From Holdemania sp. Marseille-P2844 (GTDB taxonomy: Bacteria > Bacillota_I > Bacilli_A > Erysipelotrichales > Erysipelotrichaceae), in assembly GCF_900120005.1 (NCBI RefSeq), contig NZ_LT635454.1:216759-280758 (forward strand): DNA of 64,000 nt. The letters are read 5' to 3'. The notes below the pieces were generated by a model. It ran no database searches, was not told the DNA's origin, and was given only the letters and a program-made list of their open reading frames with translations. Positions 33,795-39,074 of this stretch are shown here, piece by piece (the first letter of the stretch is position 1; each line of letters begins with the position of its first letter). A program made the translations under genes and the position numbers.

Positions 33795-33828
33795 AATCAG
33801 ATCCCGATAGTCAGGATCTGATTTTCTT
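33795..33828. terminator. Bidirectional terminator after pgcA
   Basis: Stem AATCAGATCC/GGATCTGATT, loop of 9 nt, T-rich on the plus side. The right arm covers the last codons of the minus-strand gene. Confidence 0.75.
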
Positions 33829-34512
33829 TTTCAGCAGTTCTTTGACTTGTTTTCGCTGTTCGTTTTTGTCTTCAACCCGAGTGAGGACTCCGATCAAAGA
33901 GGTGAATTCATCCATACCGAGCATATCGACGGCATGTTCATCTCGTTCGCTCAGGTCCATCCGCTGACTCAGGACAACCTTGATCAACGCTCGCTGACCC
34001 GCTTCCCAACCCTTGTGGAAACTTTCTTCGCTTGCCCTTTCCAAGCGGCGCTGCTCGTCGACTTTATCAAACTGCGCGCGCATGCAGGCGATTGCCATCC
34101 GGGTGTTACTCAAATAATCGGCCCGGCTTTCTTTCTTTTCCTGATCGGATTTCTCAGGCTGCGGATTCAAGCGCCGCCGACTGACGAGCGCTTCGATTTG
34201 TTTTCGCAGATCTTTGCCATCTTCAAGGCTGTCCAAAATTTGCACTAAGGCGGCAATGTCGTCTTCTTCAAGCAGAAAGATCAGACGTATCTCACTTTCC
34301 GTTAACGCCATCCGCTGTTGGACAAGGTCTGTGAATAAAGCCCGCCGGCCTTCGATCAACCCTTCCGCTTTGCCCGCTTTCCAACCGTTATCCCATGCTT
34401 CTTCTTTATTGCCGCCAAGCACTAACCACTCGTCAATGTCATTAAAATAATCCCGGATCCGGCAAAGCAGCGAGTCCGTATCCTGCAAAAAGTCCAATTC
34501 CTCTTCAGTCAT
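33811..34512 (-). CDS. Hypothetical protein with an internal duplication
   Basis: 233 residues, very charged, all-helical, no signal peptide. Two related segments are visible: ~41-112 (GWKAGKAEGL...VQQRMALTESEIRLI...LVQILDSLEDGKDLRKQIEAL) and ~167-230 (GWEAGQRALIK..LSQRMDLSERDEHAV...LIGVLTRVEDKNEQRKQVKELL), compared here only through short key blocks: GW-AG, QRM-L-E-, and D-K--RKQ---L. Similar GxxxGxxxG helices with a basic tail end the Rpn/PD-(D/E)XK nuclease-like transposase proteins, but no nuclease domain is present. It could be a detached C-terminal part of one. AGGAG lies 9 nt before the ATG. Confidence 0.6.
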   Translation of the reverse strand: MTEEELDFLQDTDSLLCRIRDYFNDIDEWLVLGGNKEEAWDNGWKAGKAEGLIEGRRALFTDLVQQRMALTESEIRLIFLLEEDDIAALVQILDSLEDGKDLRKQIEALVSRRRLNPQPEKSDQEKKESRADYLSNTRMAIACMRAQFDKVDEQRRLERASEESFHKGWEAGQRALIKVVLSQRMDLSERDEHAVDMLGMDEFTSLIGVLTRVEDKNEQRKQVKELLKKKIRS

Positions 34513-34705: not shown

Positions 34706-34734
34706 TTGAACTGAAAAAAGCCTTCCTGTATAAT
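34706..34734 (+). promoter_or_regulatory. Promoter of the ANTAR-pyrG operon
   Basis: TTGAAC (34706-34711), 17-nt spacer, TATAAT (34729-34734). Start site expected near 34741. Confidence 0.75.
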
Positions 34735-34746
34735 ACTTCCGTTGAA

Positions 34747-34796
34747 CGAAGGGGTTCATGAAAAGTCAGCTTTTCATGTCCCCTTTTCTTGTTGAA
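34747..34796 (+). terminator. Leader terminator (attenuator) directly behind the promoter
   Basis: Perfect 9-bp stem CATGAAAAG/CTTTTCATG with loop TCAG, extended by GGGG/CCCC across a small internal loop, then TTTTCTT. It starts only a few nt after the predicted transcription start, so it would end a ~50-nt RNA unless read through. Confidence 0.65.
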
Positions 34797-34811
34797 ATTG
34801 AGGTGAAGCCG

Positions 34812-34980
34812 ATGCTGAAAAATAAGCAAATTTCCTTCCATCCAGTTCAGGAACACGAGGTCCGGTTTAACCGGCTGATCTTTGGCGGATTGCCTGAAGA
34901 AATGTCGGGACCGGCGATGAGACGGGGATATATCCGCTGTCCGCTGTCCACACTAACAGAGGAAAGACAGGCGAAACTCA

Positions 34981-35006
<26 letters not shown>
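34812..35006 (+). CDS. Small protein of unknown function before the ANTAR gene
   Basis: 64 residues from ATG 34812, with GAGGTGA 6 nt upstream. The frame is open further back to ATG 34758, but that ATG lies inside the leader hairpin, so the shorter form is used. Basic and soluble (NRLIFGGLPEEMSGPAM, YIRCPLSTLTEERQAK). No family recognised. The end overlaps the ANTAR gene by 26 nt, so at least a coupling role is possible. Confidence 0.45.
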
Positions 35007-37152
<2,146 letters not shown>

Positions 37153-37153
<1 letters not shown>

Positions 37154-37547: not shown

Positions 37548-37576
37548 TTGACAACTTTTTTGTTTGAGCATATAAT
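37548..37576 (+). promoter_or_regulatory. Consensus promoter of the cold-shock gene
   Basis: TTGACA (37548-37553), 17-nt spacer, TATAAT (37571-37576): perfect sigma-A consensus. Confidence 0.88.
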
Positions 37577-37608
37577 ATTAACAGATTTAGACCGTTGGAT
37601 GATATGAT

Positions 37609-37653
37609 AACGCGCTGTGAGATCATGCTTCAAGAGGTGATTTCGAGCGCGTT
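37609..37653 (+). promoter_or_regulatory. Long hairpin in the cold-shock 5' leader
   Basis: Outer stem AACGCGCT/AGCGCGTT (8 bp) and inner stem GAGATCA/TGATTTC around an AGGTGA-containing strand. It lies in a ~120-nt leader before the csp ribosome site, the usual place for temperature-dependent RNA structure in csp mRNAs. Confidence 0.6.
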
Positions 37654-37704
37654 TTAGCTTATTGACCCATTAAGTTCTAAATTCAATAAGGAGGGTATTT
37701 CATA

Positions 37705-37914
37705 ATGAATACTGGAAAAGTAAAATGGTTTAACGCTGAGAAGGGCTACGGATTTATCTCTGACGACAACGGACAGGGTGATATCTTCGTTCATTTCTCT
37801 GGCATCAACGGCAGCGGCTACAAGTCCCTGGAAGAAGGACAGAAGGTTTCTTACGACGTTGAAAACGACGAAAGAAGCGGCAAGACACGCGCAGTCAACG
37901 TTACCGTTCTTTAA
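37705..37914 (+). CDS. Cold-shock protein (CspA family)
   Basis: 69 residues, one cold-shock domain: [15 protein letters not shown] (RNP1 KGYGFI) and DIFVHF (RNP2). Binds single-stranded RNA as a chaperone. AAGGAGGGT upstream. Confidence 0.97.
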
Positions 37915-37931: not shown

Positions 37932-37956
37932 GAGGCCTGCGGGCCTCTTTTATTTT
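37932..37956 (+). terminator. Terminator after the cold-shock gene
   Basis: Stem GAGGCC/GGCCTC with TGCG loop, then TTTTATTTT. Confidence 0.85.
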
Positions 37957-38570: not shown

Positions 38571-39074
38571 ATGGAGAAAAAAATGGAAGAAAAACTTCAG
38601 GTTCTGATTCAGCTGGCGACGTTATTGAACGAGAATCAGATCCTGTGGGCCGTCGGCGGATCGCTGCTGCTGTACTTCAATGGTTTGGTTTGCGACTTTC
38701 ACGATCTTGATCTGATGATCGACGAACATGCGTGCGAACAGGTTGCGCGGTTGTTCAGCCCGCTTGGAATCCGGCATCCTCAGCTGCCGTCGCCGCAGTT
38801 TCATACGCAGTGCTTCATGGAATTTACGATCAGCGGCGTGGAGATTGATGTGATCGGTAATCTGGGAATCGAACATGAAGGCCAGATCGTTTCATTTCCG
38901 CTGCAAAGCGAGGAAATTGAGGGACAAATCATCCTGGGCGGCCAGCGGATACCGCTGCACTCTTTGCGGCAATGGGAACGTTGTTATGCGCTCATGGGCC
39001 GGACGGAAAAAGCGGCGATGCTGCGCCGGGCGCGGGAAGCGGAAGAATTGGGGAAGGCCATAAAAAAATCCTGA
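38571..39074 (+). CDS. Nucleotidyltransferase-fold protein
   Basis: 167 residues. N-terminal helix followed by AVGGSLLLYFNGL and FHDLDLMID: a GGS motif, then the Asp-x-Asp pair in the position used for metal binding by polymerase-beta-like nucleotidyltransferases. A third acidic residue is in GVEIDVIG. This is the layout of MNT/DUF-type minimal nucleotidyltransferases, some of which are antitoxins or drug-modifying enzymes. Substrate unknown. Confidence 0.7.
   Translation: MEKKMEEKLQVLIQLATLLNENQILWAVGGSLLLYFNGLVCDFHDLDLMIDEHACEQVARLFSPLGIRHPQLPSPQFHTQCFMEFTISGVEIDVIGNLGIEHEGQIVSFPLQSEEIEGQIILGGQRIPLHSLRQWERCYALMGRTEKAAMLRRAREAEELGKAIKKS

Follow-up and report, generated by a model that had tools for sequence, protein, structure and literature searches.

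Within the window, the 64,000-nucleotide stretch of Holdemania sp. Marseille-P2844 DNA that was analyzed, a sigma-A-type promoter is followed by a hairpin terminator, a small open reading frame (ORF), a gene for an ANTAR-domain protein, and pyrG (Table 1). The original prediction had placed a promoter and then a terminator at 34706-34796, ahead of a small ORF, an ANTAR protein, and CTP synthase; these coordinates were right, and the three genes were borne out, the latter two by matches to PF03861 and to PF06418 and PF00117, respectively. It had overlooked a second hairpin that is mutually exclusive with the terminator. The 3′ end of the small ORF overlaps the ANTAR gene (34981-35006). Promoter and terminator, and the order promoter, hairpin, small ORF, ANTAR gene, and pyrG, were kept in four of four Holdemania genomes. 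In a collection of named genomes, the close relatives of the window species were H. filiformis, H. massiliensis, and an uncultured Holdemania. Nearby, a 233-amino-acid ORF on the minus strand (33811-34512) had no convincing Pfam or NCBIfam match. A cold-shock protein gene (37705-37914; region 37548-37914) has a perfect TTGACA-17-TATAAT promoter, a leader of about 120 nt, and a hairpin terminator at 37932-37947, and a nucleotidyltransferase-like gene (38571-39074) that matched PF10706 (aminoglycoside-2''-adenylyltransferase) at 23.1 bits, just above the cutoff, adjoins a GNAT acetyltransferase gene.

Table 1. Features of the pyrG leader and the genes downstream of it, in window positions
Feature	Position	Strand	Basis
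Sigma-A-type promoter TTGAAC-17-TATAAT	34706..34734	+	10/12 consensus bases; both boxes kept across the four Holdemania species
Antiterminator hairpin, UGAAC/GUUCA stem with single ANTAR-type hexaloop at 34748-34753	34743..34758	+	Folding, covariation
Intrinsic terminator and T-tract	34749..34793	+	−20.8 kcal/mol, z = −5.2; arm conservation
Ribosome-binding site gaggtg of small ORF	34800..34805	+	Direct reading; conserved in alignment
Small ORF, 64 codons, probable glnA stub	34812..35006	+	Collinear GlnA match; glnA position in relatives
ANTAR regulator gene, presumed antiterminator of the pyrG leader	34981..35523	+	PF03861 match
pyrG, CTP synthase (glutamine-dependent)	35537..37153	+	PF06418, E 1.6e-128; PF00117, E 2.6e-42

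The promoter boxes lie at 34706-34711 and 34729-34734. The promoter score alone was within chance, with 5 sites found in 5 kb against 4.3 expected. Across the four Holdemania genomes, identity was 100% in the −10 box and 83% in the −35 box, compared to about 29% in the spacer and upstream DNA, and the promoter was accepted as real because its boxes are conserved while the spacer and upstream DNA are not. Promoter spacing predicts a transcription start near 34741, within ccGttgaac, and in agreement with the original prediction the start region is not GGGC. The terminator hairpin begins about 15 nt past the promoter (34734 to 34749). Counted from the predicted start, the antiterminator hairpin would begin near +3, and the stem of the terminator would follow near +9.

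The terminator hairpin (34749-34785) reads AAGGGGuuCAUGAAAAG-UCAG-CUUUUCAUGuCCCCUU, then UUUUCUUGUU. Its stem pairs AAGGGG (34749-34754) with CCCCTT (34780-34785) and CATGAAAAG with CTTTTCATG, interrupted by one small internal loop, and the T-tract TTTTCTTGTT follows directly 3′ of the hairpin, to 34793. None of 200 shuffled sequences was equally stable. A simple terminator scan did not list the hairpin in the window, presumably on account of the small internal loop. Moreover, the 5′ and 3′ arms were 71 to 88% invariant across the four Holdemania genomes and the tetraloop 0% invariant, a pattern that looks like selection on a stem.

The second hairpin, UGAAC[GAAGGG]GUUCA, has a predicted energy of −4.9 kcal/mol alone. 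It shares 10 nt (34749-34758) with the 5′ arm of the terminator, and because these nucleotides are common to both, the two structures cannot coexist. When growing transcripts were folded, the hexaloop hairpin belonged to the most stable structure at lengths of about 21 to 39 nt, and the terminator became lowest in energy only from about 42 to 45 nt; in the model, hairpin first and terminator later is the folding order required of an antiterminator. The three other Holdemania species carry an AAAGGG loop, in keeping with the rule that an ANTAR hexaloop has A at position 1 (A1) and G at position 4 (G4). The window loop has G4 but carries G in place of A1, which the other leaders have. EutV makes no contact with A1 of its target (PMC8934654), and changes of A1 to U lowered induction in the eut system (PMC3369931). 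A dual-hexaloop target is defined by an A1/G4 hexaloop on a short stem, by a linker that connects an upstream hairpin, P1, to a downstream one, P2, by the overlap of P2 with the 5′ side of a terminator stem, and by an ANTAR protein whose binding increases readthrough (PMC3369931). The window leader has the terminator overlap and no P1-P2 pair: where the original prediction proposed to look for a two-hexaloop ANTAR target, only a single hexaloop was found, at the extreme 5′ end. An Rfam search of the whole window and of the loci of five relatives matched no family.

The ANTAR protein is encoded by the sole ANTAR gene in the genome and matched PF03861 at 37.3 bits (cutoff, 27.3). AlphaFold predicted a receiver-like domain, a long helix, and a three-helix ANTAR domain (pLDDT 94.8). 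The top Foldseek matches were the EutV-RNA structure 6ww6, which was the best fold match, and Rv1626; matches by sequence were AmiR, NasR, Rv1626, and EutV, with AmiR (1qo0) the best match in the PDB (E 3e-9). The loop-contact residues A137, K138, E148, and M160 were invariant in 26 relatives. The loop contacts of EutV, with Met172 plugging the hexaloop and Tyr164 (PMC8934654), were used for comparison: M160 aligned with Met172 and H152 with the Tyr164 position, which is also His in AmiR. In the receiver, VNNA replaces the acidic pair, RP replaces KP, and D53 alone is kept. Pfam gave no Response_reg match in the protein, and the receivers of relatives often lack the phospho-acceptor Asp as well. 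Judged by these residues, the receiver is a degenerate, AmiR-like pseudo-receiver, and control by a kinase is unlikely. Without the phosphorylation pocket, the protein probably receives its signal through contact with another protein or a ligand and not from a histidine kinase.

A survey of 145 genomes of the family found an ANTAR protein above the PF03861 cutoff in 43, and most of the genes belonged to a glnA-ANTAR or a glnA-ANTAR-pyrG operon. A promoter, a single AAnG hexaloop, and an overlapping terminator precede glnA-ANTAR(-pyrG) operons, or a divergent glnN gene, which encodes a type III glutamine synthetase, or gdhA, in about 30 related genomes, and the loops include AAAGGC, AAAGGU, AAUGGC, AACGGC, AAAGAU, and AAGGAC. 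When the letters of the loop were left free in a scan of 300 kb of ANTAR loci, AAnG gave 36 hexaloop-over-terminator matches and any other class 0 to 2; the controls gave 0 to 4 (Markov-1) and 1 (reversed). Since AAnG dominates with the loop letters left free, the A1/G4 rule emerges from the data. Three scan matches (L084:3551, L085:3644, and L104:3678) had no promoter, were judged coding-sequence coincidences, and were excluded. A promoter of at least 9 of 12 consensus bases was present at 32 of 37 sites, and its −10 element ended 10 to 25 nt (median, 15 nt) ahead of the loop. We note that a leader on the minus strand of L092, with its hexaloop near 2120, precedes a probable glutamate dehydrogenase gene and enlarges the presumed regulon.

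Covariation supported the stem. Among 27 distinct leaders, 95.4% of cells were paired, a figure partly built in since sites were selected with a stem requirement, and the covariation score was 0.69, compared to 0.32 in shuffles (0 of 500) and at most 0.28 when the pairing partners were slid. Double stem changes, which like the free-loop result are less affected by the selection, numbered 29 against 8.8 in shuffles, and compensating stems included UGAAC/GUUCA, GGC/GCC, ACAGC/GCUGU, and AAGGC/GUCUU, among others. MAFFT misaligned the terminator 3′ arms between two leader types. The leader also occurred together with the ANTAR gene: beyond Holdemania, 31 of 36 ANTAR loci had it within the fetched stretch (29 detected by the scan, and L089 and L093 by eye), as did four of four in Holdemania, and it occurred in 0 of 13 regions upstream of glnN in relatives that are ANTAR negative. 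The association was significant by Fisher's test (p = 3e-8), although it was not blind, as leaders were sought beside ANTAR genes. One of the 13 glnN regions, L231, from a genome with no detected ANTAR gene, keeps a promoter and a terminator; its hexaloop is disrupted (AAC AATGATGGC GTT), and the leader may be a switch that has decayed. Finally, at loci of Ruminococcaceae and Lachnospiraceae in the Clostridia, AAnG hexaloops again occurred singly, close to the start and overlapping a terminator (20 AAnG matches, with at most 5 in any other class), and the single form is thus not confined to Erysipelotrichaceae.

The conservation of the loop bears on whether the attenuator is regulated at all. 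A fixed level of readthrough could set the expression of the operon while the ANTAR protein acts elsewhere, as the G at loop position 1 in the window species might suggest, but the hexaloop is kept across genera with a covarying stem and a strict loop consensus. Moreover, a search of the four Holdemania genomes for a TATAAT-hexaloop-terminator pattern, which would miss promoters with other −10 elements, found a matching stem only at the pyrG leader, and the ANTAR protein would then be left without an obvious target; the hexaloop alone, at up to three mismatches, was too unspecific for use genome-wide. We consider an unregulated attenuator unlikely.

To our knowledge, every characterized ANTAR antiterminator (eut, nas, and ami) carries two hexaloops, P1 and P2. 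A classical target of this kind would require that P1 lie farther upstream of the window hairpin and be transcribed from a promoter higher up. The same scan did recover P1 and P2 in other Bacilli (L257, L261, L266-L269, and L271), with P2 over the terminator and P1 43 to 54 nt before P2, loop to loop. No A1/G4 hexaloop with a stem was found within 90 nt upstream at the 24 of 37 sites that were checked, or within 75 nt upstream at clostridial sites. Furthermore, given the spacing of the −10 element, no more than about 10 nt of RNA would precede the hairpin, which leaves no room for P1, and the DNA upstream of the conserved promoter is not conserved. We regard a hidden P1 as very unlikely. In the dual leaders upstream of ANTAR-linked glnA (L257, L261, and L266-L269), the P1-P2 linkers are roughly 27 nt or longer, and the 5- to 12-nt linkers of the Enterococcus faecalis eut leaders (PMC3369931) are shorter than those of the other Bacilli.

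The original prediction also considered a nucleotide-sensing start site like that of Bacillus subtilis pyrG, at which low CTP causes pausing and reiterative addition of G at the start and the terminator is pre-empted. The presence of pyrG downstream and of a terminator no more than about 50 nt from the start recalls that system, but the predicted start has neither GGGC nor a homopolymer run, relatives have the equivalent leader ahead of glnA, glnN, and gdhA, and what is conserved is the AAnG hexaloop rather than the first nucleotides; a CTP sensor is highly improbable, and this part of the prediction was not supported. Least credible, to the point of being nearly negligible, is translation-coupled attenuation through a leader peptide starting at an in-frame ATG inside the hairpin (34758), for although an 82-codon frame runs from there through the small ORF, no evident ribosome-binding site is suitably spaced before that ATG, the frames through the hairpin vary in start codon and length among relatives, and the stems covary as RNA, not as codons.

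The small ORF occupies the position that glnA has in the operons of relatives. A profile of the four Holdemania ORFs was collinear with GlnA (residues 1 to 27 with 1 to 27; E 3e-7 in one comparison), and the best single stub (G001) scored 7.6 bits, above all 4,000 shuffles (top, 3.6 bits), with the stub of the window itself at 1.0 bit. None of the four Holdemania genomes yielded a type I GlnA when searched, and GlnN was present in all four. We conclude that the small ORF is probably the decayed N terminus of a lost type I glnA. Between the window and H. filiformis, dS was 0.26 in the small ORF and 1.02 in the ANTAR gene, and given the low dS the small ORF may be under some constraint at the nucleotide level. 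A 32-nt block (34945-34976; TGTCCACACTAACAGAGGAAAGACAGGCGAAA) before the start codon of the ANTAR gene is identical in three Holdemania species, and the flanking coding sequence diverges.

Holdemania and two further genera (G009 and G069) lack glnA in the operon, with the leader, the ANTAR gene, and pyrG remaining together. In a member of another family of the order (G037), pyrG has its own promoter, an AAAGAC[AAAGGC]GUCUUU hexaloop hairpin, and a terminator. Judged from the glnA-less operons and the leader of this pyrG gene, pyrG is itself likely to be a target. No hexaloop leader was found upstream of glnN in Holdemania, and the circuit has apparently shrunk there to the autoregulation of one operon.

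Based on comparative sequence evidence, we think it very probable that the pyrG leader is a protein-controlled transcription attenuator in which the ANTAR protein binds one hexaloop. Transcription would start near 34741, and the small hairpin UGAAC[RAAGGG]GUUCA could fold within about 20 nt at the extreme 5′ end. By default, the terminator would draw on AAGGGG and CAUG in the region of the hairpin, displace the hairpin at about 45 nt, and end transcription at the T-tract near 34785-34793. Active ANTAR protein would bind the single hexaloop, with the ANTAR domain reading G4, such that the antiterminator hairpin persists, the terminator is blocked, and transcription continues into the glnA stub and on to the ANTAR gene and pyrG. 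As the ANTAR protein is encoded by the second gene of the controlled operon, the circuit would be autoregulatory. The signal would be nitrogen or glutamine status, judged from the targets in relatives (glnA, glnN, gdhA, and pyrG), and its sign, like the readthrough itself, is predicted. The original proposal that the ANTAR protein relieves the terminator has strong comparative support from a hexaloop that excludes the terminator and from a family-wide leader, with the amendment that there is one loop, not two.

Two points raise doubts about the single-hexaloop reading: the G1 of the window loop and the two-loop requirement of eut, in which deletion of P1 abolished induction of eutP (PMC3369931). 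The prevailing model of ANTAR antitermination calls for two hexaloops. In structural work, the ANTAR binding site was redefined as one hexaloop and the natural role of single-hexaloop sites was posed as a question (PMC8934654). Published searches for ANTAR targets required two hairpins (PMC3369931; PMC8164766), and genome searches of that kind probably missed single-hexaloop leaders. In a literature search that lacked many subscription papers, "single hexaloop" appeared with ANTAR only in PMC8934654; a narrow whole-word search for ANTAR with "Erysipelotrich" found no paper, and for ANTAR with pyrG there was no ANTAR-domain paper among the matches listed. The single-hexaloop variant of ANTAR attenuation is apparently both widespread and hitherto undescribed. 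We give an even chance to the broader proposal that it is a distinct, widespread mode in which a 5′-terminal hexaloop is caught as it leaves RNA polymerase and the P1 "recruitment" hairpin is dispensable, with Holdemania reduced to a self-contained circuit of leader, ANTAR protein, and pyrG that ties CTP synthesis to nitrogen status via a nonphosphorylated pseudo-receiver. One hexaloop near the start, over a terminator in each case, is present in about 35 natural leaders of Erysipelotrichaceae and at about 20 clostridial candidate sites, and such natural leaders make the question posed in PMC8934654 directly testable with a 55-nt template. They also connect CTP synthase, which consumes glutamine, with a nitrogen regulon of the ANTAR type, and in the Holdemania operon glnA was lost and the switch kept.

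Like the Holdemania leader, the leaders controlled by EutV (eut), NasR (nas), and AmiR (ami) have a G4 hexaloop that excludes an intrinsic terminator, with A1 shared by the relatives of the window species, and a linked ANTAR gene and a nitrogen theme are common to all. The Holdemania leader differs in having one hexaloop, at most about 10 nt from the start, without the P1 recruitment hairpin. In the clostridial glnA-nitR arrangement, an ANTAR gene lies beside a glutamine synthetase gene, with presumed antitermination. That adjacency is found in the relatives of Holdemania, but pyrG is the third gene of their operons and the sole enzyme gene left in Holdemania itself; the nitR antiterminator is mentioned in PMC4676874. 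The Holdemania protein resembles AmiR of Pseudomonas aeruginosa in combining a pseudo-receiver, a coiled coil, and an ANTAR domain with His at the loop-binding aromatic position, whereas the target genes differ and no AmiC-like partner was identified for it. Finally, the B. subtilis pyrG attenuator and the Holdemania leader both place a terminator soon after the start of the pyrG transcript, but the Holdemania leader lacks the GGGC start, serves a different operon, and carries an ANTAR hexaloop.
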